From Arthonia radiata (Eukaryota > Ascomycota > Arthoniomycetes > Arthoniales > Arthoniaceae), in NCBI GenBank assembly GCA_002989075.1, contig PSQN01000003.1, positions 2,670,340-2,734,339 of the forward strand: a stretch of DNA of 64,000 bases, given 5' to 3'. Shown piece by piece: positions 8,962-34,131 of this stretch. Under the pieces are notes generated by a model. It was not told the origin of the DNA. It searched no databases and was given only the letters and a program-made list of their open reading frames with translations. The translations under genes and the position numbers were made by a program. Within the stretch, counting starts at the first letter, position 1; the number at the start of each line of letters is the position of its first letter.

Positions 8962-9308
8962 GCTTGCCCTTGAGTTGAAGTTTCCAGAGACAGGGCAGTA
9001 TTTGAGTGATAAGGTCGCTTCTCAGTACAGTTGTGAGACTGGGGCCATCAAAGGCTTGTCCATCTACATTTGTACCCGGCTCTGCGACAGGCGAAGCTCA
9101 TAAGTATCTTCTATTCGTGAATTCACGCCAGTGCTTGCATGTCCGACTACAGTGACTCATGCCCTTGTACGGAGTAAGGCTTGAAAGCATTTACTGGATG
9201 CGGAAGCCTATTCGCATGATGAACACACGATGAGTGCATCAAGCTGCGAAGATGCTGTGTGACTCTTGACAGCCCTATCGCTGGGAAGATCACGGGAATA
9301 TTACAATA
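8962..9308. other. intergenic flank up to the transposon insertion site
   Basis: Promoter side of the reductase. The TA at 9307-9308 is the left copy of the transposon target duplication. Base composition is that of normal host DNA, with no obvious RIP leakage. Confidence 0.5.
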
Positions 9309-9477
9309 CCCGTACCCTCCGCGCTCAGCCCTATTGGGCACAAATTCCTGCGCTAAACCGCTTCGGAATTTCTCATTTGTCGGGTACTAGCATAAGCTAG
9401 TACCCGACGCATACCCGAAATGGTCGCATACCCGAGATCGATTCCATATATTTTACCTACACGCCGCAAAGAGCTTC
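9309..9477. repeat. left terminal inverted repeat, 169 bp
   Basis: Matches the reverse complement of 33557-33725 over the full 169 bp with only about four or five differences. It starts CCCGTACCCTCCGCG. Inside is a perfect palindrome at 9379-9408 with 13 bp arms and an ATAA spacer. Two 11 bp direct repeats CGCATACCCGA lie at 9408-9418 and 9425-9435. The repeated TACCCG core is a candidate transposase-binding site. Confidence 0.92.
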
Positions 9478-9818
9478 CTAAAATTGAATAATTGACTCTC
9501 CGATCGATAGTTGAGGCTCAGAGCGCGCTTTTGACTTCCCTTTTTGGCTATTTGTGCGTTTTTTGGTACGCACAACTTCCTTTTCGGTCTCAGCAGCATC
9601 CCGATTCTTTACCATCTTTCTTAAAGAGGTAGCTGAAATAACGCCACCCTTCTGCATTTGGCGCCCATCTCCTTTCTTGCGTTTAAGCTCCTCGCGCCGA
9701 CGCGCCTCTGATTGGATAGAATCAAGATCCTCCTGAACTAGGTCTCTTTCAGTAATCACACGCTCTCCGATATGCGCAAGCTGCCCCATTCTTATCCAAA
9801 AAGGGGCTAGTTCCGGGC
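9478..9818 (-). pseudogene. Fot/pogo transposase, C-terminal part
   Basis: This is the last 341 bp of the transposase frame. It is open from 9789 to the stop at 9478-9480 and encodes a charged tail with many Lys, Arg and Glu. It reads straight on from the piece ending at 26004 once the Copia insertion and its 5 bp duplication are removed. The tail is poorly conserved in the family, so its identity rests on continuity with the upstream pieces and on its position against the repeat. Confidence 0.7.
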
Positions 9819-10001
9819 TGTCAGAAGTTGATGAGATCCTTTCGATTCAACTGCAAACGAAGCTCGAACTGGACTATATGTGCGTGCCAAGACCTGTGTC
9901 TGTATCAGGTATCGTGGCATGCCAAGCCCGCTCCAGGAGTCCAAAGCTAGTGCATGAAAGTTGAGACTGAACCAGGACTTCAGCGTCTATAATTTCTGAC
10001 A
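9819..10001. repeat. Copia-1 LTR (left copy, 183 bp)
   Basis: Starts TGTCAGAAGTTGATGAG and ends ATTTCTGACA, so it has the TG...CA ends of LTRs. It aligns over its full length with 25816-25998. This copy looks nearly free of RIP, unlike its partner. Confidence 0.9.
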
Positions 10002-13000
10002 CACCCCCTCAGGATCAACCATGCCGACGACGGTGGCGACATCCCAACAAACGAGATGCTCCTAACAAACTACATAAGGTTGTTCTTCTGATTATCTTCC
10101 GTACGGGGAGCTAGGTCTTATCCAAATCGGACTATTATTGCCTACGTAATTACTTACCTGTCGATAATATATTAAGATACCGTCGAAAGATACCTAGAAT
10201 ATCGATAAAAAGTATCGATCCTAGGCATACTTTTGACTCTCTAGTTTTAGTACAGCGTACTAAGTCTATATTAAGAGTCTTGGGCCCGTACCATACTAAG
10301 TTGTTAAACGAACCTTCGATGCTTAACTAGACTAAGAGTCTTTATTAAGCTATCCGCAATATTATCGATAGTAGGAACATATTTAACTGCAATATAACTC
10401 TAAAGCAACTACTCCCTATAGAAATACCAGCGCACTTCGATGTGCTTAGTCCCCTTATAATGCTCTAAATTCTTAGCAAGAGCGATTGTACTAGTATTGT
10501 CCTCCTTAATTACTATAGACGTTACGTTAATACAGTTAAACTTCTTAATTAGACGTAAGACCCAGAGAGCCTCCTACGTATAAATCGTTAACGCTACTAA
10601 CTTAGCCTCAGTTAAGCTTAAAGTTACAATTCTCTGTAGTCCGAACTACTACGTAACGGGGCCCTTTACCTTAGTTCCAACGGTAAAGACGTAACCTAAG
10701 TGTAAGCAGCGATTCTTCTTATTGTCTTTATAAGCAGAATCGCTCTATTCTAACATACCGATGTTCTCTAAGATATTTACCTTAAAGTTGAAAGTAATGC
10801 TAATATCCAATGTACCCTTTATATACCGGTATACTAACTTTAGTTCTACTATATATTGCTCCGTAGAATTAGCTATAAACCGACAAAGCTTAGCAATCTC
10901 GCAGGCAAAGTCCGGTTAGGTAATTATAGCGGCATACATTAAGAATTTGCTTGTACGCTGATACTATACTAGTAGGTCCGTTAAAGTCTAATATCTGTTA
11001 AAAGGAGGATTAAGCTATATACCCTCTAGCAGTAGCGAGGCTCTAGAGCTACAGTTGTCTATATCTAATTCTACTAGTATTCGCTTTAGATATACTTTCT
11101 GACTTAGCTTTACCTTGCAGCGAGACCTATTTTGCTCTATCTTAATATTTAAGAAGTATTTTAACTTACTTAAGTCCTTTATCTTATAGCTGCGGGTTAG
11201 AATCTTCTTAACCTTATTTACCTTACGTCGTAATAGTGCCGCAACTAGAAAGTCGTTAACGTAGATCAAAATTTAGGTCTTTCCTTTAAAGAATAGATAA
11301 TAGTCTATCTTTAAATAAACAAATCTCTGTCGAGTAAGGGTTCTAGCGGCATCTTGATACTACTTATATATAGACTGCTTTAAGCCGTACAGCGTACGGG
11401 AGAGAAGCTACTTTATACCTAGATACGGTGGTATTACCCTCTTAGACGGTTTTATTTAAATTTCTACGTTATCGGGAAGATAGAGATTTAGAAATACAGT
11501 TACGGCATCTATTTAATTATACTTAAGGTTTAGTACTGCGACTAGAGTTATAAAGATATAGAACGTGTTAGTCTTTATTACGGCTATAAACGTCTTATTA
11601 AAGCTACCTTTGTTCTAGAGAAATTCCTTTGCTACTATACGTGCCTCGTACCGTACAACTATACCGCAATCGTTAGTCTTTAGATTGAATACCTACTTAG
11701 TGGCGAGGACCCTTGCACCCTTTAGCGGATATCTCCAGTAAAATATCTTGTTAGCTTTCTGCGATTCGATCTCCTTAGCCATTATCTTTCCTTAATTGTC
11801 TAAATCTATCTTTATAGCTTTCTTATACGTCTTAAAAGCATATAGTTAATTTAAGTCTGCTATAGCGGTAGCGAATACCTTAGCAAACCGCTTCTCTGCG
11901 GATATAGTAAAAGCAAAGGTTAAACCAGAAAAGAATCCTAGTAGCCTACGTAATGTAGGTAAAGGGCTTGATAGCAAGTCGAAACGAATCGAATTTTAAT
12001 TTAAATTTGGATACTTAATCGGTATGTACGTACAATAGTAAGCTTCTAGCGAACTAGACGAAGGCGTACACAGAGTACTCGCTTCGTTGTTGTTGTTACT
12101 AAAGTACTTCCTATCTAGATAGTCGTTGTAGTTAATCCTCCTACTACTAATACTCTCTAGAACATCGCTCGGATTATAAACTAGAAGAGACGGAGACAAC
12201 GGTAGTATATCTAGATTAGCAATCGGCGTTAATAGTAATACTAGCTTTGCTCTACGAAGTATTCTAAACTAACTATATAAATTGCCTAACTCGCTTGTAC
12301 GCTCCTCCGCTAATATCTTCTTTACTAACTTCGGTACCCGTATATCCTCTAGTTCTTCTATATTAAGACGCTAACGGATACAATTATTGCTATTAATGTT
12401 AGAAGCACCGCTACTATTATCGAAGCTAGCTAGACTACTGCCTTATAAGCTAAATTTACCGATATTATTATACGAACGCAGGAAGGGTTAACTAAAAGTT
12501 AAGTCTTCCGGATCGAGATAAGGGACTAAAGGCTCTACCTTATAATTCTTAGCGTTTAGATTCTTAAGGTCATTTACTTGCTTAAGAATATCCGCAACCG
12601 TTTTAAAGCGAGATTTATTAAATTAAACATAAGAGATCTTTATTACCCCCTTACGCGTTAGAACGAGTATATAATAAGTAGTTCTGCTACTATTAGTAGC
12701 GTACCCTACTATCTTATTAATATAGGCCCTCGAGTTAAACTTCCTAGGGATACGGCGAGCAACGGGGACAGTAATATATACTGTATAACTAAAAGCTCGT
12801 AAATAAGAGATATTTAGCGGTACACGCTTCTTCTATAAAGCCTTATTAACGGCTTAATATAGAGTCTTGCTATTAAGCGCTACCGTAGCCGTACGGTTAA
12901 GAATATAGATAGCTGTACTGTAGGCTTCGTTCCAATACTTCTGCGGCACTTTGCTACCGATAAGCATTAAACGAGCTATATTGTAAATAATTCTGTTCGT

Positions 13001-13915
13001 TCGCTCCGTAACTCTGTATTTACCTAGCGTATAGGAAGGTAAGTAATATACCTAAATACCCTTACTCAGGCAATATTCCTGAAGCGAACTAAACTCAGTA
13101 CTGTTGTTAATCTTAATGCCCTTAATCTTCTAATTTAATTGCTTATTATAAAGCATCTTAAACGTCTTAAACGTAGATAAGACAGTATTACCTGTTTTAC
13201 CGTCAAGCTTTTAAAAGTACCGCGCACAGCAACAGTCGTCTGTTATATTTAAGGTAGTATTACTGTTGTTGGCAATCGCCTTCGGCGTAATAAGACCAAC
13301 GAGGTTAAGGTATAGGAGATCTAAAAACTTATTGTGTCTATCTTAGAGTATCTTACCGTTATAGTAGATAGCCTTGCCTTGTATACAAGCGCTGTAGTTA
13401 TAATTAAGCTTAAGAATGCTGTTACCTAAGCTAGTAACCTGCTTAGCGGTCTTCTATAAGTAATCGTAGGATATATACCCGAAGCGTACGTACTACGTCT
13501 TAGAAGATACGCTTAAAGCCGTACTACCGTCGATAAGGTCTAAGACCTAGTAGCGACTAGTATTAATTAGTCTTATAAGCTTATTGTTACTGTTTGTTCG
13601 TATAATCTTGTTTTCTTCTATATATACGCTAAAGCTATGCTTAGATAACTTATAGCTTAATAGCAAATTAACGAACAAACTAGAGAGATACAGTACGTTT
13701 ATAAGCTTTAAGTCGACAATGTCCTTATTAGTCTTCTACGTCTTCATATAGACTATACCTCGCTTAGTTATATTTGTAGTACCTTTAACGGTATAAACTA
13801 CGACCTAGCAAGGCTCTAGGTCGGTAAACGTACCTAGATTATTGTATATATGGTCGGATGCTCTAGAGTCTGCAAGCCAATCTGTGCCTAACCGAGTAGC
13901 GAGTCTAGTAGTAAG

Positions 13916-14137
13916 TATTGTAAGAGATAGCGGATATTGTCGCTCGATTGCTACTACTACTAATCTTACTATTCTACTGCGTCTAGGAGTCTACTTATAT
14001 ACCCTGCTGTAGCCAGCTAGCTTCTACTATACTAGGTATCTCTCTGCCACTGTCTTACCCTATTTATAGGTAGTTGCCGAGAAGGCTCCGGTCTAGGTTC
14101 TATTTGCTATCTATTAGCTAAGAGAGTATTTACAATA
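13916..14137. repeat. Copia-2 LTR (left copy, 222 bp)
   Basis: Aligns end to end with 24207-24428. The consensus ends are TGTTGTAAGAG and TTTACAACA, which are inverted relative to each other as usual for LTRs. Confidence 0.9.
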
Positions 14138-17100
14138 CTCCCTCTACTTCCTTAGCGGCTACCCTCTTCCGATACCTAAGCCCTATCTAGGCTGCATTCG
14201 CTGCATACTTCGGCGCAGGTAGTAGCTTGGTTAGGTAGTTAGCAGCTATATCCTTTGTAGGTATATACTGTACCTCAATCTTACTGTTCTCGGTAAGTTC
14301 CCTAATATAGTATATACTAACGTCGATATACTTAGTCTGAGCATAGAACTCGGGATTCTTAACTAGAGCAATCGCGCTCTAATTGTCTTCGTATAGTAGT
14401 AACGGCTGTACTACTAGGCTCCCCCGACCTAGTTGCTCTAGTAAGTTCTAAACTTAGACGACCTCTTTACTGGCATAAGCGAGAGCTCTATATTTAGCTT
14501 TAGTTGTCGATATTAAGGTACTCCGCTGAAGCCTGCTACTCTAAGATATAGCTCCCCCGGCTAATATATAAATATACCCTATTGTCGAACGTCTACTGCT
14601 ATCTACTGCGTAGTCTGCATCTAAATAGTAGTAAAGCTACTTAGATGCCGAACTTATACCGATTCTGTATCGGATACTATATACTAAGGTTCTATAGAGG
14701 TACTATAGCTCCTTCTGTGCTACAGCAGCGTGCTTGCCTGCTGAATTGTAACAATATTAACTAAGCATTTGAGTTACAAACGCAATGTCTGGCCTGCTTA
14801 CTCGTACAAGCTAATTTAGCTTATTAATTAGTATCTAATATTGCTCTATATCAGCTAACGGCTCCCTTTCCTAGATTAAGGTTAAATTTGTATACCTCTT
14901 TACTAGTATATTTACCTCCTTAGGGCTTTAGACATACTCTACCAGCAGCTCCTAGATATAGTACGCTTAATCGAGTTAAATTATCTGTTTACTGCGGTCT
15001 CGTTAGATTCTAATTCCTAGGATCGTACTAACCTCGTTAAGGTCCTATATCTAATATTCTTGCTTTAGAAGCTCCTTTATGCGAACAACCTCTTGTAGAT
15101 TAGATACTACAATTAGCATGTCGTCGACGTATAAGGCGACAATTGTGCGTCTTTTCTTGTCGACCTAAATGCTTTGCTCTGCGGATAAGCTACAAAACCC
15201 AATTTTCTCGAAAAATCGCCCAATCTTTTAATTCCAGACCCGACCTAACTGTTTAAGCCCTGGTAGTCCTTTTCGAAGCTTTAAGACCTTACCCTCTAGT
15301 ATATCTATGTCTCCTAGGGTCTATAGGTAGACGTTCTTGTCTAGTTCCCCTAGCAAGTAGGCGGACACTATATTTATTTAATGTACCTCTAGGTCTTCTA
15401 CTACAGCTACTGCTAGCAACACTCGCAAGGACTCTATACGTACGACCGGCGAGAAAGTCTTAAAGAAATCGACCCCTGGCTGCTAACTAAAACCTCTTAC
15501 TACTAGCTTAGCTTTATACTTGTCGACCTGACCATTGGGCAGGAGCTTTATCTTAAATATTTACTTAGTGTCGACTAGGTTTGTACGATCGCTAGGGTGG
15601 TCGACAACTTCCTAAGTCTAGTTTCTGTATAGCGACTAGACCTAATTCTAGATTACTAGGCCTTAGAACCGCTTGTTCTTTAAGCTAATTGCTTTCTAAT
15701 AGTTCTTTGGTATAGAACCGGCTCTTAGAGGGGCATAGTCGACTTTCAGCGCTTTTTAAAGCTGTTCCGCTTCTTCTCCGTACGCTGTGTCTTCGTACCG
15801 TTGTAGTAGTCGAGTAGCGCGCCCTAATCGCCTAGCAATCGGGCCCGGTTTAGAGTCTTCTTAGCTACTAGGTGTTAACGATAGTATACTTCCCCTGCTA
15901 CCAGCAAACGTCTCTTGAAAAGCCTTAATCGCCTCCCTAGTAGTACGTTCTTGCTACTCTCTAGTAGCTCTAAGTTGTAGCGTCTCCTGTCTAAGGTCTA
16001 GGTCCTTAAATACGTCGATATATTGCTTAGTATAGGGCCTAAATAGCTGACCTCCTTTTACTAATTTATTAAATCGCACTAAGCTGGCGAGTCGTACAAT
16101 CTTTATACGAGGGTCTAGAATCCGGTACTGTCTAGTTGTCTCTATATAGCTTACAAAGACTCCTTAGGCTACTATAGGCTCTAGCTTGTTAGTACGGCGC
16201 TCCTTAGGGGTTTGGCTGTATGCAACGCAGCCAAATACTCGTAGATACCCGAGACTAGGCTTTCTACCCATCTAGAGCTTCTCTGAGCACTACTTCCCCG
16301 GCCGGGGAGTCCAATTCTTAAGGTAGGCGGCTACGTGTACCGCTTTACCCCAGAGCTTCTTTAATAGATCTACTGCAACTAGCATACTTCTAGCAGTTAT
16401 AATTAGTGTACGATTTAAGCGCTTAGCAACGCCGTTTTACTTAGACGTATATAGTACTAAGAGTTTAATTTGCACACTCTGCTTCTGCAAGTCTCTTATT
16501 AGGGCCTTAAACTCTGCTACATTATTGAGCCGTATAGCCTACAGCTGGCAGCCACTCTACTGCTTAGCTTGCTGCCTTTAAGCTCGAAATGTCCTCTGTA
16601 GGGTATATTAAACTTCTTTAAGAAAGATTTAGAACTTTCTTGTATAATCGTTAGTTATTGTTAGCATATGTTGCTTACCTTCTAGCGTCTAATGCTTAAA
16701 AGGATTCTAATAGTCTATATGCACCCGCTTAAGCTTCTTCTAAGCTCTTTCTGCTAGCTTCTTGCTAACAATTTGTACGGCTTTCGTTAGTTTGTACGTC
16801 TCGTAGGCCTTAACCGGCCTAATCTCTGCTAATATACCCTGTTTACCGCCTACAGCAAGCTACTACATCTTTTGCTCTCTTAAATATCCTAGTCTACGGT
16901 ACTAAAGCCGCGATGCTATATTTTGAGCAATACTTACGTTTATTGTCTTAATTTGCTTTATACAAAGTATATACGCCTTCCTATAGCGTTCCGCAGTTGC
17001 GACCTATTTTCTGTTCTTCCTAAGGCTTACCTTCTGCCTTATAAATCCGAACAACATTCCTCGATTAGCCAGCTAGCTGATAGACAGCAAGTTGTATCTA

Positions 17101-18116
17101 ATCTAGAGTATATAGATTGCACCTACAATCTTCGTACGAATACCGCCGATTCGTACCTCAATCGTATCCGTTCCGGGCGCTTCTAAGATCTGTCCGTTAG
17201 CGATCCTAATCTCCCCTTAATAGGGGGCATAGTCGATAAAAAGGCTCTTATCGAACGTTATATGCTGTGTGCAGCTCAAATCGAGTACCTACTCGTTTGA
17301 ATCCTGCTAATATAGCAGCCCTGCTATAGTTACTATAGCTATTCAAGCCGCGTTAGCTTCTTCTCTAGGCTCCTGCCTAGAGGCCCGGCACTCTAACTGG
17401 TAGTGCCCTTTCTAATAACATTTAAAGCATTCAATGTTACCTTTATTAAACCTTCTCTGAGGCTGTCGCTGCTCCCCCTAGCGCTGCTGCTTCCTCACAG
17501 CAAATCTGGCCAGTTTCTAACCTCCCTAATCCTTTAGTGAGAGCTTAACTTCTTTGAGACGCTGTATAACCTTATAATAGGACATTAAGGCTATTTCTAC
17601 TGCCCTTAGGGCTAATACCGTCGTCTAGTAGGCCTCTGGCAGGCTTCGTACGAATACAGCCTTCTTAGCTGCATCTAACGAGCGTTTATCCGGCCTCGCA
17701 GCAGCAATCTGCAGCTGTAGTCGGGATAACTTGCTAGTACTAGTATTAAGTATGCCTACCTACTAAAACTTATGAAACTCGGATAGCAGGCGCTGTACCC
17801 GCTCTTCGCTGGGTACCTGGTAGATTGTACGAAGCTTGTCGAGAGCCTGTTTTAGTAACCGAAGCCCTAGTAGGTAAGTACGTTGCTCCTTATTAACAGT
17901 TAATTTAATAATAGCTAACGCTCGTACCGAGTTCTTCCTCTAAGTCTTCTTGTTCTTTCTAAGGCCGCTGGTAGACACCTCTACGTACTTCTAAAGACCT
18001 TTACCTTCTAGTACGTCCTGCAGCACATCAACCTATTTAAGGAAGTTAGCGTCGCCTAGCACAGAGACCTTAGAGAAGCTCTTCTTATAGGATTCTTCTA
18101 TCTTATTCGTACGGAG

Positions 18117-18390
18117 TGTTACGGAACTACCTTAGATCAACCAACTACCGCCTTTGGAAGCTATTGACACGCCTACCGTATTAGGAAGACTGTTCTTTGC
18201 TACCAATCAATTGCCAGTTCACCTTCTCCCAGCTTTACCTCCGGTTGCCTAGGCAAAAGGTAAAGGCTTGGCAAACCGCTCTAACTAACTAAATAGTAGT
18301 TCTGGTTTCCTAGATAGTTGTTCTGTAGCTTTGAAATTCTATCTGTTCCTCTGTGCAGTTAATAAGTTGTTCTCGATATCGCCCGTAATA
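18117..18390. repeat. Gypsy 5' LTR (274 bp)
   Basis: Starts TGTTACGGAACTACC and ends near GCCCGTAA. It aligns over its full length with 23842-24115. Confidence 0.9.
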
Positions 18391-21300
18391 TTATTCCAAA
18401 GCTCTACCTCTTTTACCTATATGTACGTAGTAGACATTAGTAGTGTTAATATTTACTAAAGACTGTTGTACTGCACCTAATAAACCCGTCGAACTATTTA
18501 AGCATTCTTTGGCAAGATACAACTAACAGACGCTGAGCGAGGCAGTTAGTAGAAATCGAACCGAATTAAATTAACTTTGCAGAATAGATTCCGCTGTAGT
18601 AAAAAGTATTGTTAACCCTACCCAAGCACGAAGCTTTAATAGTTATATACCTACTATACGAGATAGCACCCCGAGAATCGTTACTAAACCGTCTAGTTAG
18701 TAATAATAATACTAATACGCAATTCTACAGAGACATTAGGAGCTACGCGACAGACGATAATATAATTAATCTAATAACGACCCGGCCGGAGGACTTCTCC
18801 GTATTTTGGGTAGAATTTTACGCCGAATATACCGATACTTAAGCTCAATTACGTAAGCTCTAGACTAAAGAGGACGAGCGCCGAAATCGTCGTTAGAATG
18901 TTAATCTCTAAACAATTAGAAAGAGTCGCAAAGAGACTACTAAGGAGACGCCTGCGTTAGATTAGATTAGTAATAAAGAGAAATCTAAGAAGATGCCCGA
19001 CCCTCCTATTTTCGCTGGCGGGGCCTTACAAGAGCTTAAGTTATAGATACGTCGTATAAAGAATAAGATGCACATTAACGCTAATTACTATTCGTTAAAC
19101 AAAGCTAAAGTAGCTTATATTCTATTACGCCTAGATAGAACCGCCGCTTAGTACGTAGAACCTTACTTAAACTGAGTCGAAGAGACTATACTGGAGGACG
19201 TCTACTAGGCGTTAGAGAACCGGTACGGAGATCTATTTTAAGAAGAAACTGCTCGCAAGGACTACCGCAATCTACGCTAAGGACAGAAAAAATTGTCTAA
19301 GTTTCTTGTCTAGTTCTACGAACACGTAATTAAAGTTAATATCGATAAATTAACTTAGCTATACGACTTACGGGACAAAATTAATATTCTCTTTAAGAAA
19401 GCTACGCTGCTGTATAAGCTTAAGACTGTCGCTAATTATATTAAGGAACTCTAATTCGCCGACCAAAATATTTAGCAGATTAATAAGGCGAAGTCTCGAG
19501 TAAACGCAGTTAAGGAGAATAACTCTTAACTAAATCGATCTCTATAGTCGCGGACAAACTTAGCTCTAGCAGGAACTAGAACTCCTACCGCTGCCGTCGA
19601 GCTCTTAACTACTCTAGTAGCACGTTAATTAACTTTAAGCACGAACCCTTTTTAACGAAACGTAGAAGATATTACTTGCTATAAGTATTAGAAGAAGGGC
19701 TATTACTAGAGGAACTACCCTCTTAAGAAGACTCTAGCACCGGAATAGGGAAACGCGTAGCCCTCTACGAAGTTTAGTTAGAGCGGCTAGCACTAGGCAG
19801 CAGTTAGGCTTTAGAGAAGGTTAACAAACTCTACTCTCTACCTCTAGAGCTGGTTAACATCGAAAATAATATAAAGATATAGGACGACCCGTTTATTTAG
19901 ATATAGCTGTTGATAGCTAGCAACTAAAACTAAACTCCGCTTAAGTTCTTAGCGATAATAGACATAGGTTGCTAGATCGCTGCCGTTATAGATTACCGCC
20001 TTACAGAGAAGATTTACTAAACGTTTAAGATTAGCTTAGTAAAGCTAAATAAACTAATTACTATCTAAAGATTCGAAGGACAGCCGGGAAAGACTATTAA
20101 AAAGGGACTATTCGTGTCGGTACAGGTACAAGACTACTGAATCCCGCGTACGTTGTTCTACGTTATCTAGCTAAGAACGCAAAAGATCTTGTTAGGGAAA
20201 CGCTAGTTAGAAACGTACTCTGTGTCGATAGACTGTAAGAAAGGACTATTAAAATTTAGAAACGATTGTAAGTACAAGTAGAAGCCGGTATAGAATTAGT
20301 TAACGATACCTAAATCTCTATTCGACTTAAGGCTAGCCCAAATCGATCCGAATCTATCTCGGAACGGCCGAATTATAGAAGATAAGCGGCCCTTACCGTT
20401 AGTAAAGGTAACAATACTAAAGAGGTTCGAGGCTAACTAGCAGGTTCAACCTTAAATACCGATTAGCCCCGCTAAAACGAGCTCGATTAATTAAGGACAA
20501 GGAGCGTCGGTTGCCGCGGAAGGTGCTTAGAAGGCCTTCTTTGAGAAAGAGATATATAAGGAACCTAAGTTGCGACTTAAAAAGCGACAGGATACCTCTA
20601 TACTCGGAAGCCTCTAGCAGATTAACTTTGTAGGTACAGCTCCGTTTCGATACCTAGCAAAGTAGAAGAACGCCAAAGTATTTTCTATAACTATAAAGAA
20701 CATTGAATCCTATCAGAAAAAAGACTAAGAAACGATTAATCTAAAATTAAAGCTACTTAAAGAGTTCTAAGAGTTTTTAAATATATTTAATAAGAACGGC
20801 GCGGACAAGCTATTACCTTACCGACTACAAGACTTAAAGATAAAGCTAAAGTCTAGCTCCAAATTACCTTATTAAGAACCCTTAAGGAGGATATTAACAG
20901 AAGAGGCTAGTCTTATTAAAGACTACGTACGGTTAAACCTCGCTAAACAGTATATCTCGCCTAGCGACTTTTATTACAGCTCTTCGATCCTGTTTGTTCG
21001 TAAACTAGGAGGTAGACTCTATTTATATATTAATTACCGAAGACTAAACGTAGTTACTCAGAGAGACTTCTATCCGCTTCTATTAATTAAGGAAACTCTA
21101 GTAAGGGTTACTAAAGTATAGTAGTTCTCGAAGCTTAATATCCGTTAGGCCTTTTATCAACTAAAAATAGCTTTAGAAGAAGATTCGAACCTTACGACTT
21201 TCGCTACCCGCCTTGAAAACTATAAGTACAACGTAGTTCTGTTTGACCTGTATAATGCTTCTTCGGCCTTCTAACGATTTATAAACGATTTCTTTTTGAA

Positions 21301-23841: not shown

Positions 23842-24115
23842 TATTACGGAACTACCTTAGATCAACCAACTACCGCCTTTAGAAGCTATTAACACGCCTA
23901 CCGTATTAGAAAGACTATTCTTTGCTACTAATTAATTGCCAGTTTACTTTCTTCTAGCTTTACCTCCGGTTGCCTAGGCAAAAGGTAAAGGCTTAGCAAA
24001 CCGCTCTAACTAACTAAATAGCAGTTCTAGTTTTCTAGATAGTTGTTCTGTAGCTTTAGAATTCTATCTGTTCCTCTGTGCAGTTAATAAGTTGTTCTTA
24101 ACATCGCCCGTAACA
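23842..24115. repeat. Gypsy 3' LTR (274 bp)
   Basis: Partner of 18117-18390, ending CGCCCGTAACA, followed by the target duplication. Differences between the pair are largely RIP-type transitions. Confidence 0.9.
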
Positions 24116-24193
24116 CAGAGGGGGGTAGAACTAGAGTAAGAAAACGAATAGATAATAGTAGATAAGAAACAACGACGGCAGTAAGGCGTTAAA

Positions 24194-24206
24194 CCGAGCT
24201 TATAAC
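24194..24206 (-). other. Copia-2 primer-binding site candidate
   Basis: Directly next to the 5' LTR, the minus strand reads GTTATAAGCTCGG. This resembles the complement of the anticodon arm of initiator tRNA-Met, the primer region used by Drosophila copia and yeast Ty5. Confidence 0.55.
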
Positions 24207-24428
24207 TGTTGTAAGAGATAGCGAATATTGTCGCTCGATTACTACTACTACTAACCTTACTATTCTGCTGCGCCTAGGAGTCTACTTATATACTCTACTG
24301 TAGCCAGCTAGCTTCTACTATACTAGGTATCTCTCTGCCACTGTCTTACCCTATTTATAGGTAGTTGCCGAGAAGGCTCCGGTCTAGGCTCTATTTGCTA
24401 CCTATTAGCTAAGAGAGTATTTATAATA
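24207..24428. repeat. Copia-2 LTR (right copy, 222 bp)
   Basis: Partner of 13916-14137, followed by the target duplication GTAAG at 24429-24433. It is the 5' LTR in the element's own orientation. Confidence 0.9.
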
Positions 24429-25801
24429 GTAAGGTATATAGCAAAATTCTATTTAGTAAACGTATTACGTGTCTTATCTAGTTCAGTAGACGGTACTATA
24501 TCGTCGACGGCGTCAATAAACGTAGCAATTGCGCTAGTATCGCTACCGCGACGTCCCCTCTTCTTAAAGATATTACCCTTGCTAAGGTCGATATTAATAA
24601 ACTTATCTACCTTTTTATACGGCTTCTAACCCTCGGAAGCGTCTTTAGGGTAAGTATAGCGACAGGTATTCTCTTTATAACTAACTATCTAGTATACGTT
24701 ATACTTCTTTCTCTTACTATTACTACGGCTACTACCGTTACTACTGCCGCCGCCACTAGACTTCTTTTTGTCGTTCTTCTTGGTATCGGTAGCTAGGCCG
24801 GCGGCATCCGTAGTGCTCGCCTTCTTCGACTTAACGATTCGAAATTCTTCGATCACCTCTTTAAACAAATCGTAAATATTAATTGTTAATAAGTCTTCTA
24901 GTGCGTTATACTGGCTACGCTTAGTAGTAACCTACTGTTTATATCCTTTAACGTCGCTTATATTGTTTAAGAAGATAACGACTTTAGCTTCGTTACTAAG
25001 GATTTTAAGCTTGTCTCTAGCCTTCAATCTATTAATCTTGTTTATTATCGACTTAAACTTAATATAATACTACTCTACGTCTTTATAAGTCTTCGGCGTT
25101 AGCACTAGCAGTTGCTAAATTGTATCGTAGGTCTCCGTATAGCTAGTCTTTATATATCTCTTTAAGTAGTTCTACTTATTTATAGTATAATTAAATTTAT
25201 TGTTATTTAGGTTCTACTTAATAGCGTTAATAAGGTTGTTAAGGATATATAGAGACGCCTTTGCCTCCTTATTGTCTTACTTGTCTCTTTTCTGCCGCTT
25301 CTCTTTCTTAATAGCACCGATATCGCCGATATTAGGTTCTAGTAGGTACTTATTACGTAAGCTATCCTTAATACTAATAACAAACTTCTAGAGTTCTGTA
25401 GCTTTTAGAAGATTCTTTATGTTCTGCTACTACTACTAATAGTTTTCTAAGCTATTAAGGGCTTTAAACTTAATATTCTGCTTAAGGTTCGATATGTTGT
25501 ACTGACTCTAATGTTTGCGGAATTATTTTAAAGTCAATTCTTATCCAATTTTAGTAAAATTAACAACGATAGGCTTCTTTTTAATAGGCAAATAGCTTGC
25601 ACTATACCGGCAAAGGATTACAGTGCGTTTTAAATAAAAATTCTAATAATATTGTGTTAATGCGCTATAGCACCTAGCGTCAAAATGGTTGCTGTATACA
25701 AACAACTTCGTTGTAGCAGAATATACTTAATTCTTATTAGAATTTAGTAGGAACTTCTGCAATCGAATCGCGTAATTGCAATAAAGCTACAGATGTGCAA
25801 T

Positions 25802-25815
25802 TCGGGCTTATAACC
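25802..25815 (-). other. Copia-1 primer-binding site candidate
   Basis: The minus strand reads GGTTATAAGCCCGA directly next to the 5' LTR. It is identical to the site of Copia-3 and close to the complement of the initiator tRNA-Met anticodon arm. Confidence 0.65.
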
Positions 25816-25998
25816 TGTCAGAAGTTAATAAGATCCTTTTAATTCAACTGTAAACGAAGCTCGAACTGGACTATATATGCGTACCAAGACCTATATCTGT
25901 ATTAGGTATCGTAGCATGCCCAGCCCGCTCTAGGAGTCTAAAGCTAGTACATAAAAGTTGAGACTGAACTAGAACTTCAGCGTCCATAATTTCTAACA
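25816..25998. repeat. Copia-1 LTR (right copy, 183 bp)
   Basis: Same length and order as 9819-10001, but carrying many C-to-T and G-to-A type differences. In the minus orientation of the element this is the 5' LTR, with the primer-binding site beside it at 25802-25815. Confidence 0.9.
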
Positions 25999-26003
25999 TA
26001 GAC

Positions 26004-26438
26004 AAGCTTAAAGCTCTTTACCTTCTTGCGCGATCTTATTAACAAACCGGCGATACAATCTTCCTGTTCGGGAAGTTGTAGGCGGCTCTTTACCTTGTAG
26101 AGTAGCTTCCCTAGATATTTTATCCAAATCGGGTATCTGTTTAAGCACTTTATTGGCGTTCAATGGCTAGATTCCTGTCTTTTCGAAGCCTGAGCGTATA
26201 GTTGCCTCTTTAAATATATTCTTGCGTATCTCAGGAAGCCTATCTAGAAAGTCTGTCTTCCTAAACTTTAATGCACCGCTTCAAACTGCCCGATTAAGCT
26301 TCTGCTTATAGTAGTGCTTCTCGATTTAGAAAACTAATACATCGAGCGGCTGTATAAGGTGCGTTATATGCGCCGGGAACGCAAAAAGTTTAATCTTGTA
26401 ATCTTCTACGTACTAAACGAAATTGGCAGTTACTTAAC
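26004..26438 (-). pseudogene. Fot/pogo transposase, middle part
   Basis: The minus strand carries the conserved Fot1/pogo block around the last catalytic acidic residue, with HLIQPLDVLVF, followed by KHYYKQKLNRAV and the IWPLNA-like block typical of Fot1-type DDE proteins. A further 48 bp of the same frame lie at 26643-26690, beyond a solo LTR. Several in-frame TAG/TAA codons replace expected Gln and Trp codons, which fits RIP. Confidence 0.82.
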
Positions 26439-26637
26439 TGTTAGAACACTACTAGTGCCAGTATCATAGAATTGCGTATATTCTTTCTAATCTAGAAGAC
26501 GTTCGGTGCTTAATACAAGATTGAGCTAAGACTCCGGCTATCGAACATCCTAACACTATGTAGCTTGTATAGCACTAACAAGACGTATCATAAAAGTTGA
26601 GACTGCACCTAGGAAACATAGACGCAGATTTTCGATA
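26439..26637 (-). repeat. solo LTR of the Copia-3 family (199 bp)
   Basis: Same 199 bp sequence as the Copia-3 LTRs but in reverse orientation. An exact 5 bp duplication TTAAC flanks it (26434-26438 and 26638-26642). No internal part is present, so it is a separate insertion reduced to one LTR by recombination. It interrupts the Fot/pogo transposase. Confidence 0.9.
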
Positions 26638-26690
26638 TTAACCTTTAAACCTATCTAAAAGAAGTAATCGATACGTACCTCGTTGCCTCT

Positions 26691-26827
26691 TGTTATAAAC
26701 CTGTCCTAGGCCCTCCGAGCGCTGGGCCTCCGAGCGCTTGGCGCATCATTGCAATTTCCGACCAACGTTCTCGACACATCTCAACCGTACTATTGCCCCT
26801 AGCTTTTCTGTTTCTAGTTCAGCGCAT
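26691..26827. repeat. left half of an unassigned LTR-like segment
   Basis: This 137 bp starts TGTTATAAACC and is not part of the transposase frame. It holds a 12 bp direct repeat CCTCCGAGCGCT at 26712-26723 and 26727-26738. Its GC content is higher than that of the surrounding sequence. It is cut by Copia-3 and continues at 32387. Confidence 0.45.
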
Positions 26828-27026
26828 TGTCGGAAATCTGCGTTCATGTTTTCTGGGTGCAGTCTCAACTTTTATAACACGTCTTGTTGGTGCTATACAA
26901 GCTACATAGTGTTAGGATGTTCGATAGCCGGAGTCTTGGCTCGACCTTATGTTAAGCACCGGACGTCTTCTAGATTAGGAAGAATATACGCAATTCTATA
27001 ACACTAGCACTAGCAGTGTTCTAACA
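26828..27026. repeat. Copia-3 5' LTR (199 bp)
   Basis: Starts TGTCGGAAATCTGCG and ends GTGTTCTAACA. Pairs with 32183-32381 and with the two solo LTRs of the same family. Confidence 0.92.
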
Positions 27027-27040
27027 GGTTATAAGCCCGA
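27027..27040 (+). other. Copia-3 primer-binding site candidate
   Basis: GGTTATAAGCCCGA follows the 5' LTR directly. It resembles the complement of the initiator tRNA-Met anticodon arm and is identical to the site of Copia-1. Confidence 0.65.
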
Positions 27041-30000
27041 ATCGCGTATCTGTAGTATCAATGCAATTACGTAGTCATTATTTAGTTATCAGTACAAGAT
27101 TCTGCTAAGAATTAAGCAGTTAACTGCTTATCAAAGTTGTGAGCAAACTGAAGCATTCCTGTACTAAGTTTAGTAGCGCAAACAACAATACTAACGTATT
27201 GTCTGCCCGTACTTGTCGATATTGGTCTAAGACTTTGTGTAGTACTACTGTAAGGTCTAGTATATCGAAAGAGCTTAGATTTATTACGAACGAACAAAAA
27301 TTAGTTACACAGTAAAGTCTAAGAGGTTAAGTAGTAATAGTAGCCGTTGACTAGTTACTACGATAGTAGACCTTAAGCAAGATATTAAGTTTAAGCATCT
27401 TATAGGCTTAAAGAACTATATAGACTAGAAGAGCAACATTAAGAACTTACTTAAAGCAACAAGTCTCTAGAAGTTTGTCGTCTAGATTAGTTTAAGAGCT
27501 CGTACTGTACGCCCTTTAGACTCTTATTAAGAAATAACTCTTACTAAGTTTAGAGCTTAAATAGAACTACAAGAGGATTAAAATGCAAAGAAAGTAAAGG
27601 CGTCGCTCTATATACTTAATAACGTTACGATTAAGATTAAGAGAACTCTAAACAACGATAAGTATAAGCATACAAGCGATAAGTAAGAATACCTTAAGAG
27701 ATATAAGAAGACGGGCTATACTAAGACGTACAACGTTGCATACTAGTTTCTAACGCTATTAGTAAGTAAGTACAAGGATATAGAGAACTACTATATTAAG
27801 TTTAAGACTTAGATAAACCGTTTTAATAGACTTACTATACTAGGCGCGTAGAAGCATTTAAGTTACTAAATAAAGGTTATTATGTTTCTACAGAGTATAT
27901 TAGACGTTAAAGGCTTTAACTAGTAGGCGTTATATAAGCGAAGTAAGTATTAAGCTCTACTAAATTTCTTAACTATTAAGTTAAGTAGACTGTTTAAAGA
28001 AGTAATAGAGGAGCAGCGGATTATTAAGTTAAAGAGGTTCTATAGCACTATAGACGCTATAGACCTAGCTATTAACAATAATAATAATACTAAGAGCAAG
28101 TACTTAGTATGTAGTAATTACCGTTATTAGGAATCTAACTGTTTCTACGCTTATCTAGAGAAGACTCTAGAGAACTAGAAGCCTACTAGACAAGTTAGAA
28201 AGTTTAGAGGTGCTAATTTTACAAAAGGCAATACCTTTAAGAAAGGAAACGGTTCTAGGAAAAGTAGCCTAAGTAGAGGTACTAGGAGCAATAACCGCCG
28301 TAGTAATAATACTAAGGTAGTAGCTACGTATCTTACTACTAGCTTAACTACTTAGACATTAGCTAACTAGCTAGCTAACTTAGGCGCCTTAAACTATATA
28401 TACAACGACTTAAGAATATTTAGAAACGTTAAAAATTGCTTAATTACGGTATATACTGTAAAGGGCACTATACAGGTAACTAAGCGTGGTCGAGTTAACG
28501 TTAGGGCGTACAAGTCTAATAGTAACGTTGTTACCCTATAGCTATATAATGTACTATACCTTCTAAGCCTGTTTATTAATCTCCTGTTAAGTTATAAGAT
28601 AGCTGAATACAGCCTAAGTATATATATTACAGAGAATCGGGTTGTCTATACTAATACAATAGATAAGATAGTCGCTCTAATTAATACTAAAAGACATTAG
28701 CTACTAAATTTTATAGACACTACTGCTATTAGACTGTCTGTGTCGTTAGAAGTTTAGTACTTACGTTTTAGGTATACCTCGTACGACTACATTTAGAAGA
28801 CTGCTAAGCAAGTTAGCGGTATCGACTATAGTATTAGTAAGCCTTAACACAACTATAACGCCTATGCTCAAGGTAAGGCGGTACATTCTAACAGTTATAT
28901 ACCTTAGAAGCGGTATAACGAGTATATAGAGCAGCTCTATCTTAATTTAGTAGGGCTCATTACCCCAGTATCTGCCAATAGAGGGTACAATATAAGCTTA
29001 AATATAACAGATAACGTAACTCGTGCTCGATATTGTCGTTTATTAAACAGTAAATTTAGAGCCGACATATTAAATAGCTTTAAGTTCTTTTAAAGCTTAC
29101 TTATACGCTAATTGTCTGTTAACATTAAGAGTATTAAGATTGACCGCGGTATTAAGTTTATACTACTTATCGACTACTGTTATCGAGCTGGGATCCGCGT
29201 TTATACGGTACTAGCCTACACGTCTACAAAGAACAGAGTCGCGGAGCGCACTAACGGGCTAATTTATAATATAGTGCGTACAATGCTTGTTAGCGGCAAG
29301 GTCCTGCAGGAATATTGAGATAAAGTATATTGTGCTGCAATATATATACTTAACCGGACTACGACAAAGGCTCTAAATAGCAAGACTCTATATTAAACTG
29401 TTAACGAGGCGATCGGGCAAGGTAACAGACTAGCTTTAGACGTATCTTACTTACGCGCGTTTAGCTATACCGTATATATAACGGTCCCTAACGTACGTTG
29501 TATACGCAGTAAGTTTGTAACTAGGGCATATATAGGCAAAATAGTTAGTTACGCGATAAATAGTAGTCAATATACTTACCGGATATTAGTTCTAACGTGT
29601 AGAGGGGTAATAGAGATCTCTTACGTTTAGTTCGATAAGACACGCTTTAAGACTATTAAGAATATTCTGTCTAATTTAGCTAACCTAGAGAACGCTGACA
29701 CCGATAACGAGAATAGAAAGGCCTATACGCCGCTTTAGCCTCGCTTAGATCCCGTTAATTTAACGTTTAGTTAGCCGTTTAGTAACGTTAAAGACTTTGT
29801 ATTGTATAATAGCGAGGAGCCTAAGCCTGACTCTAAGCCTAAATCTAAGTGAGTTTGTATTCAATTTAATACCGAGGAGCCGCCTAACAAAGGTAAAGCT
29901 AAGAAGTTAGCAGATAAGATATCGCTAGCTAAATAGAAGCAAGCACGGTAGTCGCTACTAGACTAGTTTAAGCAGCCTTAGTAGTAGAAGTATTAGCAGG

Positions 30001-32182
30001 AGCCTAGGCTCAACGAGCATAACTTAGCTAACATCTTAGGTAATATAAGTATAAGCGTTAAAGACCTTAATAAGCGCGATAGACGCTATTATAGCGTAAC
30101 GCTAAGGTTCTTAGCGCAATTTACTCTAATACGTAGAGTAGTTGTTAACCTACGTACTCTATTTAATATTGCGACTGGCCGTAGACTAGCTATTAAGGAG
30201 CTAGTAACGCCGTTAACTAGGGAAGCTAAACACTAATACAGAGGTATAAGTAAAGTAAATTACTCTAATTTAAATAAGACAGTAACTAGTATAGTAGAGA
30301 ACGACTTATAGAATCTGCTCTTACCTTTATCTAACTACAGCTATATTTCTAGTACGTTTATTAAGCTGTCTACGGTATCTAGCTTCGCTAAGGTATTTAC
30401 CGCCGCTATTAATAATAGCAGTTACTAGCCGCTAGAGTCTAAGACTTATAAGCAGGCGATATAGCTTAACTAGAACCGCTAGAGCAAGGCAATTGCTAAA
30501 GAGCTTGGTAGTTAGCAGTAGAACGACACGTTTACTTAGAGATACCTATTAAAAGGAAAGAAGACGCTTCTAATAAAATAGGTATTTAAGCTAAAAGTTA
30601 ATAACAAGGGCGAGGTTGTTCGGTATAAGGCACGCGTAGTAGCAAAGGGCTTTGTATAAAAGTAAGACATCGATTTTAATAAGACCTTTATTATAGTCGC
30701 TAAGACTAACACGTTTCGGCTATTTATAGTATTAGTCGCTACTAATAACCTTAAGTACGACTAAATAGATATAGTAACGGCTTTTCTAAACCCTTTCCTT
30801 TTTAACGACGTTAAGTTATAGATAGAACCGCCGGAAGGGGTATAACCGCCGGAGACGGGCATAAAATAGAAGCTAAACTATACGCTATACGGGCTTAAGC
30901 AGTTAGCTTAGAAGTAGTATAAAGATACTATACGTACGTTAGTTAGCTAAAGCTTTAACCGCTTAGAGTATAACTACTACCTGTTCTTCCGCAGCAGCGT
31001 TTAGATACTTATCTACGTTAACGACTTTCTAATTGCTGCCCTAAATTATAAACTTATAAATAAGACTAAGAAGAAGCTAAGTAGCTGCTATAAGATAAAA
31101 GATATAGGCGAGCTACAATACTTCCTAAGTATTAAAGTTAAGCGCAATCGGGCGCTATAGAAGCTTAAGCTAAGTTAGAGAGCTTATTTTAAGCGCATAC
31201 TAAGTAAGCTGAGTATATCTAATTATAAGCCCCGAAACATACCGTTAAGCGAGAACATTAAGGTACTACCGCCGCCACAGGACTATTAGTCGTCAGCTAA
31301 ATTGCTGAGTTAATATTAGCGAGCCTACGGCTTTCTTATATACGCAGCGATAATTATTCGGTCGGATATTACCTTAGCGGTTACTAAGCTGTATCGCTAT
31401 ATATCTAACCTAACCGAACAGTACTACCTAAAGACTAAGTAGGTACTCCGCTACATTAAGGGGACACTTAATAAAGGCGTAAAGTTTAACTTTAGGGGTA
31501 ACGCTAAGAGAAACATTAGTATCGTTAAATAGAGTAATTTAGCCTTTACTAACGGAGTAGGCCGCCGCTCGTATTTAGAATACGTATTTACTGTTAAAAA
31601 TACTAAGAAAGCTCTAGTTACCTAGTATCCGGCGCTATAGCGTATCGTAACGCTTAGCACTACCAAAGCCGAATTGGTTGCTCTAACCGTAGCTACGTAG
31701 GAAGCCGTCTAGCTAAAGCGTCTGTTTAGTAAGTTTAGAGCATCAATAATAGGCCTCATTAAGATTATAAAGTTAATAGAGAACAACATAAGTACAATTA
31801 GCCTCAGCAAAAACTCTAAGTATTATAAAGCTACTAAGCACATTAAGGTACGTTAGTATTAGTACTAGAAGTAGTAGCTAAACGGCAATATCAATATTAC
31901 CTATATCGCGACAGCTAAGAATAGGGCCGATAGTTTTACTAAGGTTTTAGACGCTTAAAAGCACGTCTTATTCTTGTAGCAGTTAAATATAGACTAAGGG
32001 CTTCAGCTAGCTAGAATTCGATATCGATAGCAAAGCTATATTTGCTTAAGTCTGAGTTAAACTTAACGAGATCTAGTTCCGAATAAGCAGGTAAATATAG
32101 TAAAAGGCCTTAGAGTGTTAAATTGCTAGTAACAGGTAAGTTTAATTATCGACGTCGTCGAGAAGGTTGCTACTAGAGAGTG

Positions 32183-32381
32183 TATCAAAAATCTGCGTCT
32201 ATGTTTCCTAAGTATAGTCTTAACTTTTATAATACGTCTTGTTAGTGCTATACAAGCTATATAGTGTTAGAATGTTCGATAGCCGGAGTCTTGGCTCGAC
32301 CTTATGTTAAGCACCAGACGTCTTCTAGATTAGAAAGAATACACGCAATTCTATAATACTAGCACTAGTAGTGTTCTAACA
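32183..32381. repeat. Copia-3 3' LTR (199 bp)
   Basis: Same length as the 5' LTR and differing mainly by RIP-type transitions. Followed by the target duplication CACAT. Confidence 0.9.
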
Positions 32382-32386
32382 CACAT

Positions 32387-32513
32387 CTATTAGGTAATTT
32401 AGATCCTCTTGATATATATAGGGGCATCGCCCGACCTCTTGTTCTTGTTCTATATCTAATCCTCTTTGTATCTACAATTGAATAGAGCTCTTGGTATTGC
32501 GTCTCTGCTGTCA
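32387..32513. repeat. right half of an unassigned LTR-like segment
   Basis: Continuation of 26691-26827 on the other side of Copia-3, ending CTGCTGTCA. The two halves sum to about 264 bp with TG...CA ends and a TATATATA-containing stretch, as in LTRs. No clean 5 bp duplication flanks it, and no second copy is present in the window. Confidence 0.4.
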
Positions 32514-32516
32514 TTA

Positions 32517-33551
32517 GTTCGCCCTCTTATACCTCTTTGAGCTAGCTGTATTAAAGTACTTAATGTATTGAAGCATAATCTCGTCGTTTGCGTAACCCGA
32601 TTTAGAAAGTGCAAGCATCGTTTTACCTCCTATACTTGTTCGGGCCCAATAAGCTTAGTGCACAGCGCCTAGAATTACTACAATTGAATCAAGCTTCGAT
32701 CCAGCTACAGATATTGTCTCGATTAGGGTAACAAGTGTTCGATTAAGCTGGCTTAGAGCTACTACTTTAGATTGATTGCGTCGTACAACAACCCAATTAT
32801 TCGCTCCAATCCCAATTCGAAAGCCTGCTTGGTCGATATTCTAGATATTATGCGGGTCGATCGCGTGTTCTTGTATTAGCTCGCCGAGCTCCTAATACCA
32901 CTTTCGGATAGTATCTCTGTTTTAAGCAAGATATCGGGCCATTTCTATTGGTTTCTGGCGCGCTAGCTTATACTGTGGGTGTCGCGCTAGCCATCTTTGG
33001 CACCAGACAGGTGAGACGCGTAGAGGAGGTTTAGGTGAATCTGTAGCTTGAGATCGCGCTAGTATCGAATTGGCCGCAGAAACGATTAATCGACTGTCGG
33101 AAATCTGCGTCCATGTTTCCTGGGTGCAGTCTCAACTTTCATGACACGTCTTGTCGGTGCTACACGAGCTACATAGTGTCAGGATGTTCGATAGCCGGAG
33201 TCTTGGCTCGACCTTGTGTCAAGCACCGGATGTCTTCCAGATTAGGAAGAACACACGCAATTCTATGACACTGGCACCAGCAGTGTTCTGACATCGACGC
33301 GTCGGTGCGAGGTATATTGCGCCAAGACGATCAATATAGCTACACAGAGCTCCGTCTTGGGCAAATGTAAGCTTTGTAGACGCGTTTCGACGCGTCCAGA
33401 GCGATCCTCGCCCGTGGTACCTTGCATAAAGTGTAGAGTACGGGATCTCGTAATCGCGAGCTAGCTGCTTTAGGTCGATATGCTTCCTTTTTTACACCTT
33501 CTGGAGGATCTCCTGGATCTTGAGCTCCTGTTCAGGTAGTTTTGCAGCCAT
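32517..33551 (-). pseudogene. Fot/pogo transposase, N-terminal part
   Basis: Starts with an ATG at 33551. Residues of about 10-55 form a psq-type helix-turn-helix (KIQEILQKV, then QLARDYEIPYSTLYARYHG). A CENP-B-type second helix-turn-helix follows, with RWLARHPQYKLARQKPIEMA. The first DDE block is NIDQAGFRIGIGANNWVV, and GYANDEIMLQYIKYF follows. This order is that of Fot1/pogo transposases (HTH_psq, HTH_Tnp_Tc5, DDE_1). The frame holds a few TAA/TAG codons and is interrupted by a solo LTR at 33095-33293. Confidence 0.85.
33095..33293 (+). repeat. solo LTR of the Copia-3 family (199 bp), nearly RIP-free
   Basis: Full 199 bp with ends TGTCGGAAAT and GTGTTCTGACA, and an exact 5 bp duplication TCGAC at 33090-33094 and 33294-33298. 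It keeps more C and G than the other three copies and probably lies closest to the source sequence. Confidence 0.92.
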
Positions 33552-33556
33552 ACTTA

Positions 33557-33725
33557 GAAGCTCTTTGCAGCGTGTAGGTAAAATATATGGAATCGATCTC
33601 GGGTATGCGACCATTTCGGGTATGCGTCGGGTACTAGCTTATGCTAGTACCCGACAAATGAGGTATTCCGAAGCGGTTTAGCGCAGGAATTTGTGCCCGA
33701 TAGGGCTGAGCGCGGAGGGTACGGG
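33557..33725. repeat. right terminal inverted repeat, 169 bp
   Basis: Inverted partner of 9309-9477. The matching palindrome lies at 33626-33655. The repeat ends GGAGGGTACGGG and is followed by the TA target duplication at 33726-33727. Both repeats have normal GC content and look free of RIP. Confidence 0.92.
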
Positions 33726-34131
33726 TAATGAACCCTCCCAGACTCCTTTTCCTTCTGGCGTAGCGCCCGTCATTGTGGCGCAGTCGTGTGGCTGGTGTGG
33801 CAGGGTCCTAATCGCAATAGGGCGAGTATCACTCTTGCCAACTCTGTACCATCCCAAATATTCATCTTTATTCTCGCATAGGCAGCAGTCAGCTTCTATT
33901 GCAAACACCGTCACCGGATCACTATTTACGATTGCATCGCGGTCACCAAAGGCTATCAGCGCGTGCAAAATTACATTGCAAAGCTTCACCTGCACTCATC
34001 CACTACTTCCTTCGTTTCACATCACATCCCCAGCTCTCGATTGACAAAGCCTTCCCCGACCATCAAGGCAGGCACATCAGTCACACGCATACATCTCTCG
34101 TCACATCTCTCGTCACATCTCTTGCTGCAAC
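33726..34131. other. intergenic, transposon flank and E2 promoter
   Basis: About 400 bp between the transposon end and the E2 start codon, with host-like composition. Overlapping frames on both strands here have no recognisable content. The 5' leader repeat is listed separately. Confidence 0.5.
34091..34122. repeat. short tandem repeat in the E2 5' leader
   Basis: ACATCTCTCGTC occurs at 34091-34102 and 34103-34114, followed by a partial third unit ending at 34122, ten bases before the ATG. It is pyrimidine rich, as many fungal 5' leaders are. Confidence 0.6.

Follow-up and report, generated by a model that had tools for sequence, protein, structure and literature searches.

The window, a 64,000-nucleotide stretch of the Arthonia radiata genome (C9:2670340-2734339 in an assembly of 33.5 Mb and 16 contigs), contains at positions 9309 to 33725 an island composed of a Fot/pogo-type DNA transposon (Fot) and seven inserts, which are long terminal repeat (LTR) elements or solo LTRs. 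Four of the inserts lie directly in Fot, and three are nested, two of them in the Copia-1 line and one in solo LTR C. The deepest nesting comprises four layers, with Gypsy inside Copia-2, Copia-2 inside Copia-1, and Copia-1 inside Fot, and a preliminary description of this DNA had read this nesting correctly. The island is almost certainly a single Fot/pogo-type transposon that was split by LTR-element insertions and then degraded by repeat-induced point mutation (RIP).

The two ends of the island are inverted repeats of 169 bp (9309-9477 and 33557-33725), each bordered by TA. The preliminary description had assigned them to a single Fot/pogo element and proposed that they be aligned; the alignment gave 165 identical positions of 169 (97.6%) and bears out the assignment. 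When each insert was subtracted together with one 5-bp duplication, five Fot fragments remained, with a total length of 1,978 bp, 20 bp less than the 1,998 bp first stated. These fragments aligned without gaps, at 81 to 92% identity, to positions 1 to 1978 of four uninterrupted copies (C1, C2, C9a, and C9b), each measuring 1,978 bp and bordered left and right by TA, and the base was thus complete after subtraction (1,978 of 1,978 bp). On the minus strand, the fragments carry, in order, HTH_psq (PF05225; expectation value [E], 2.4e-5), HTH_Tnp_Tc5 (PF03221; E, 1.1e-4), part of DDE_1 (PF03184; E, 2.9e-5), and a tail without a match, in agreement with the order of psq helix-turn-helix, CENP-B helix-turn-helix, DDE, and C-terminal tail that had been proposed. 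The two helix-turn-helix matches lie on separate fragments, slightly above their curated cut-offs, and the DDE_1 match, also slightly above its cut-off, covers only positions 98 to 176 of the 177 in the profile. From these matches, the base is predicted to encode a Fot/pogo transposase, broken by stops.

In its TA target, inverted ends, length of about 2 kb, and set of psq, CENP-B/Tc5 helix-turn-helix, and DDE_1 domains, the base resembles the Fot1/pogo elements of the Tc1/mariner superfamily; it differs in the 169-bp length of its inverted ends, those of Fot1 being shorter. Each end repeat holds a 30-bp near-perfect palindrome (9379-9408, mirrored in 33626-33655), and the left end contains five TACCC[GT]/CGGGTA words, at 9313, 9381, 9401, 9412, and 9429, which may be transposase binding sites.

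All of the DNA between the two ends is explained by insertion, as had been claimed, and the uninterrupted paralogues and the 5-bp target duplications support this explanation (Table 1). The recommended check of the duplications showed exact agreement for four of the seven inserts (Copia-2 and solo LTRs B, C, and D) and agreement in four of five letters for two more (Gypsy and Copia-3), so that at least 4/5 was reached by six of seven, with Copia-1 falling short. Among random pairs of 5-mers from the island, a 5/5 match had a P of 0.0018 and a match of at least 4/5 had a P of 0.022; because the insert boundaries were placed by eye, the observed matches carry some freedom. At the places where the four direct inserts lie, the uninterrupted copies have a single target, namely, TGGGT or TAGGT, TTGCC or TTGTC, CCGCT, and TCGAC, respectively. 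Stop-to-stop frames of at least 150 amino acids were absent from the interior, consistent with the earlier claim of a gene-free island of about 24 kb.

Table 1. Components of the island at 9309-33725, with window positions and, for inserts, the two copies of the target duplication
Feature	Positions	Strand	Target duplication (letters in agreement)	Description
TA target duplication, left	9307-9308
Fot fragment 1	9309-9818	-		Fot 1-510 (orientation of the C1 copy); terminal inverted repeat and transposase C-terminal tail; gap-free, 81-86% identical to four uninterrupted copies
Copia-1	9819-25998	-	CGGGC/TAGAC at 9814-9818, 25999-26003 (2/5)	LTRs 9819-10001 and 25816-25998, 89.1% identical; 5,662 bp without insert; at Fot 510
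Copia-2 (in Copia-1)	13916-24428	-	GTAAG/GTAAG (exact)	LTRs 13916-14137 and 24207-24428, 95.0% identical; 4,509 bp without insert
Gypsy (in Copia-2)	18117-24115	+	CGGAG/CAGAG (4/5)	LTRs 18117-18390 and 23842-24115, 92.3% identical; 5,999 bp
Fot fragment 2	26004-26438	-		Fot 511-945; DDE_1 part
Solo LTR B	26439-26637	-	TTAAC/TTAAC at 26434-26438, 26638-26642 (exact)	199 bp, inverted; Copia-3 family; at Fot 945
Fot fragment 3	26643-26690	-		Fot 946-993
Solo LTR C	26691-32531	+	CCTCT/CCTCT at 26686-26690, 32532-32536 (exact)	137 + 145 = 282 bp, split by Copia-3; at Fot 993
Copia-3 (in solo LTR C)	26828-32381	+	CGCAT/CACAT at 26823-26827, 32382-32386 (4/5)	LTRs 26828-27026 and 32183-32381, 89.9% identical; 5,554 bp
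Fot fragment 4	32537-33094	-		Fot 994-1551; HTH_Tnp_Tc5 (CENP-B type)
Solo LTR D	33095-33293	+	TCGAC/TCGAC at 33090-33094, 33294-33298 (exact)	199 bp; Copia-3 family; at Fot 1551
Fot fragment 5	33299-33725	-		Fot 1552-1978; HTH_psq and right terminal inverted repeat
TA target duplication, right	33726-33727

The Copia assignment is direct for Copia-1, in which RVT_2 was found on the minus strand within 11015-11272 (E, 2.5e-10); for Copia-2 and Copia-3, it is putative and was made from the similarity of their frame pieces to Copia-1. Frame pieces of Copia-3 gave 22 tblastn rows against Copia-1, and Copia-2 gave one strong row (piece 14190-14378, minus strand; E, 9.7e-11), compared with a noise level set by stray rows between Copia-3 and Gypsy, one each way (E, 0.002 and 0.008). 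Copia-3 also contains an SH3_retrovirus match within 29397-29630 (E, 7.5e-5), under the curated cut-off. The family label of Gypsy is the least secure among the inserts, since an 81-amino-acid piece (20876-21121) gave a single weak match to the Ty3 reverse transcriptase 4ol8 (E, 0.0075) and a profile scan of the same piece returned zero Pfam matches. The right side of the island contains the two solo LTRs and the Copia-3 element of the preliminary description, and what had been called an LTR-like piece around Copia-3 is a 282-bp solo LTR. The left half of this solo LTR C had 24 genome matches, including five pairs spaced 6.63 to 6.64 kb apart, and this solo LTR belongs to a family of its own, with an element of roughly 6.9 kb. 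The Copia-3 family accounts for three insertions in the island (Copia-3 and solo LTRs B and D).

Mutations in the island were strongly biased. The four LTR-pair alignments, another check suggested beforehand, gave identities of 89.1%, 95.0%, 92.3%, and 89.9%, and over their 878 bp the pairs differed by a single transversion against 71 transitions; a CpA/TpA context on both sides was seen for 47 of these transitions. The thresholds for the two RIP indices given in the RIPCAL paper are 0.89 and 1.03 (PMC2621366); the second index was computed as (CpA+TpG)/(ApC+GpT), whereas PMC2621366 prints it in another form. By these indices, 47 of the 128 500-bp segments of the window were RIP-positive, together making up one unbroken stretch between 10001 and 33500, and the remaining 81, including three that hold the island ends, were negative. 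The GC contents of the long elements were 0.35 to 0.43. These elements also had TpA/ApT values of >0.89 and low second indices, as have Copia and Gypsy elements degraded by RIP in filamentous ascomycetes (PMC2621366); unlike those elements, short pieces in the window escape (the first 510 bp of Fot and solo LTRs C and D), and solo LTR B, which is 199 bp long and lies deeper inside, does not escape but passes both thresholds (1.41 and 0.81). The CpA transition bias and the indices beyond the published thresholds together point to RIP as the probable agent. RIP is a process of the sexual cycle and acts via enzymes of the RID/DIM-2 type.

Several observations weigh against this account of insertion followed by RIP. 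The duplication flanking Copia-1 agrees in only two of five letters, all three differences being transitions, and its 5-bp register was set by the gap-free Fot coordinates. Among the transitions between the Copia-2 LTRs, only 5 of 11 were in a CpA context, and the composition was not RIP-like in the first 510 bp of Fot (TpA/ApT, 0.88; second index, 1.26), in solo LTR D (0.60 and 1.16), or in either half of solo LTR C (1.0 and 1.15; 1.0 and 1.2). The LTR identities do not track the nesting order: the LTRs of Gypsy are 92.3% identical, yet Gypsy lies within Copia-2, whose LTRs are 95.0% identical. In addition, the two ends of Fot, the oldest element, resemble each other more closely (97.6%) than does the LTR pair of any younger insert. 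Finally, sites were compared within a single assembly, and the support for growth of the island at this TA is confined to the organism's own genome. Uneven RIP would produce the identity order seen, but identity gives no confirmation of the insertion order. Because the differences are dominated by transitions (71 versus 1 transversion), the composition is RIP-like, and the identity order does not track the nesting, LTR identity is no clock here, and dating by it was ruled out.

The outermost left Fot piece (9309-9818) and solo LTR D (33095-33293) adjoin RIP-like long elements yet are not RIP-like themselves. The idea that inserts sheltered the window Fot by cutting it into pieces too short for RIP, letting this copy escape, was considered, and sites with T/A where most other copies have C/G were counted over four segments. 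The sums were 93, 34, and 113 for the LTR-interrupted copies C10, C3, and C5, respectively; 51, 68, 36, and 81 for the uninterrupted copies C1, C2, C9a, and C9b, respectively; and 10, 117, and 72 for C13, C15, and the window copy, respectively. Sheltering was rejected on these counts, which are not strictly comparable, since C15 and the window copy belong to another subfamily and the segments of C3, C5, C10, C13, and C15 are incomplete.

Searches of the genome, in which the match counts for Fot are lower bounds, gave at least 39 rows with the left Fot end, including many further ends, and at least 26 rows with the inner piece 32532-33094. The latter consisted of ten near-copies (82 to 100% identical, window included), fifteen distant rows (69 to 79%), and one 58-bp row from the C3 copy. 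Four of the ten near-copies are uninterrupted, four carry stacks (window included), and the remaining two are disrupted by another element of Fot-like type. The end-to-end distances of the stacks elsewhere are 19.0 kb (C5), 24.7 kb (C10), and 31.1 kb (C3), with inserts at Fot positions 250-255 and 866-871 in C5, 898-906 in C10, and 1049-1053 and 746-750 in C3. Most of these inserts belong to other families, with the Copia-1 family represented by an element in C3 and the Copia-3 family by one in C5. Each of the three stacks is three layers deep including Fot, as read from the repeats alone with the duplications unverified, which would make the window stack deeper than the other three. Within the C5 stack, in a RIP-mutated part at C5:1347199-1353398, a run of 3,411 N is flanked by a pair of 1,394-bp blocks with 100% identity to each other; this run resembles an assembly gap with duplicated ends, or a withheld stretch of sequence.

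The two copies broken by Fot-like elements are those on C13 and C15. At C13:431785-435855, a second Fot-like element (70 to 76% similar) sits within the end repeat of the copy, and at C15:428888-430939, the copy breaks at Fot position 73 into another Fot-like end, with only one end seen. Fot-in-Fot insertion seems to have occurred twice, in the same 30-bp end-repeat palindrome and at two different TA steps. The C15 copy (C15:428888-430793) was the closest relative of the window Fot among those compared (90 to 95% identical per piece) and lacks all four direct insertions of the window; judged by transversions, these two copies make up a subfamily distinct from the remaining eight near-copies.

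The stack might instead have arrived whole, the loaded Fot having been transposed or duplicated as one composite with its ends served by the transposase of another copy. The presence of both Fot ends at 97.6% identity and of other Fot copies with distant ends at C5, C10, and C3 would fit such an event. However, the three other long Fot pairs carry inserts at other Fot positions and with largely other contents, and composite transposition was rejected on these grounds; moreover, neither a second copy of the window arrangement nor a sign of a stack moving as a unit was found among the C3, C5, and C10 stacks, and the 1-kb flank on each side was single-copy in a search of the genome. We regard this origin as highly improbable. 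Even less credit can be given to an assembly artefact in which collapsed or misjoined repeats mimic nesting: the identical blocks around the N run in C5 show what might be suspected, but the insertions in the window come with duplications and a register of their own, the base adds up to the exact length, and a repeat search of 8500-34500 showed no identical block of the C5 kind.

Another explanation for the nesting is that LTR elements actively target Fot copies as a preferred landing pad, beyond using them as tolerated ground. Stacks were present in 4 of the 10 near-copies, with nine direct insertions as read here (one of which, a 505-bp insert in C5, is not established as an LTR), and the Copia-3 family inserted three times in one island. 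Against targeting, the insertion points are scattered along Fot (about 252, 510, 748, 868, 902, 945, 993, 1051, and 1551), and the Copia-3 family elsewhere lies mostly in RIP-like DNA, as tolerance or a preference for heterochromatin predicts. Its LTR had 37 genome matches, 30 of which were fetched, giving 60 sides: 23 in element interiors, 1 at a gap, 28 outer and RIP-positive, and 8 outer and RIP-negative. Outside the window, 23 of 30 outer 500-bp flanks were RIP-positive, with one C5 flank counted twice owing to the duplicated block, and RIP-like surroundings are therefore the rule for this family. The island was also picked for its density, and beyond the window the studied families contribute further direct inserts only at C3 and C5; no statistical claim of targeting is made. 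Targeting is considered unlikely, and survival of insertions would better account for the nesting. A related proposal, that the Fot family seeds gene-free islands, with 4 of the 10 near-copies having independently grown stacks of 19 to 31 kb at different sites, is also considered unlikely, if somewhat less so.

In the sequence of events favored here, a Fot/pogo element would have entered intergenic DNA at a TA and later received four direct LTR insertions (Copia-1, two members of the Copia-3 family, and one member of the ~6.9-kb family), each producing a 5-bp duplication. Copia-2 would then have entered Copia-1, Gypsy would have entered Copia-2, and Copia-3 would have entered solo LTR C. Three direct inserts were presumably reduced to single LTRs by LTR-LTR recombination, of which such LTRs are the expected product, and RIP would have turned C to T in the repeats, breaking the reading frames and lowering the GC content of the long elements. 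Growth of the stack may be explained by the low cost of insertions into already dead repeat DNA, which hence survive.

The GC content is 0.54 in the flanks of the island, where open genes lie, and 0.33 to 0.45 in the 1-kb segments between 10001 and 33000. Neighboring genes include Utp21, glucosidase II beta, and Fungal_TACC. A frame with a PRISE domain lies at 7801-9021 on the minus strand, and since the Fot end is about 0.35 kb upstream of its first ATG, the island may be inside the promoter region of this gene.

The window stack belongs to a known kind, the nested transposable-element clusters. For Mycosphaerella graminicola (Zymoseptoria tritici), 78 such clusters of 7.5 to 63 kb, 33 of them >20 kb, are reported (PMC4522978), including one on chromosome 9 with base 242 and the bracket (49 (263 (623))), i.e., four levels, and eight clusters of >20 kb with a DNA-transposon or unclassified base and verified duplications. 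For Coccidioides, a nested position is reported for 9 to 13% of elements (PMC5872316). The window stack shares with the M. graminicola clusters the dominance of LTR invaders, duplications of 4 to 5 bp, a GC drop, a CpA-to-TpA bias, and four-layer depth; in contrast, the bases of those clusters are mostly LTR elements (PMC4522978), whereas four uninterrupted copies allow the base in the window to be checked nucleotide by nucleotide. Given the equal size and depth published for M. graminicola (PMC4522978), the stack is less unusual than the preliminary description implied. Its value lies in its cleanness and in the occurrence of four parallel stacks within a single Fot family.

This stack has resolved junctions and a base verified to the base pair, and its nesting reveals part of the order in which the later events took place. 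It also cautions against using LTR identity to date stacks of this kind where RIP is at work. If the Fot family does seed islands, a short DNA transposon would decide where LTR islands form, via targeting or via silencing of its surroundings. The occurrence of four such stacks within one family provides a small natural sample for weighing targeting against tolerance.

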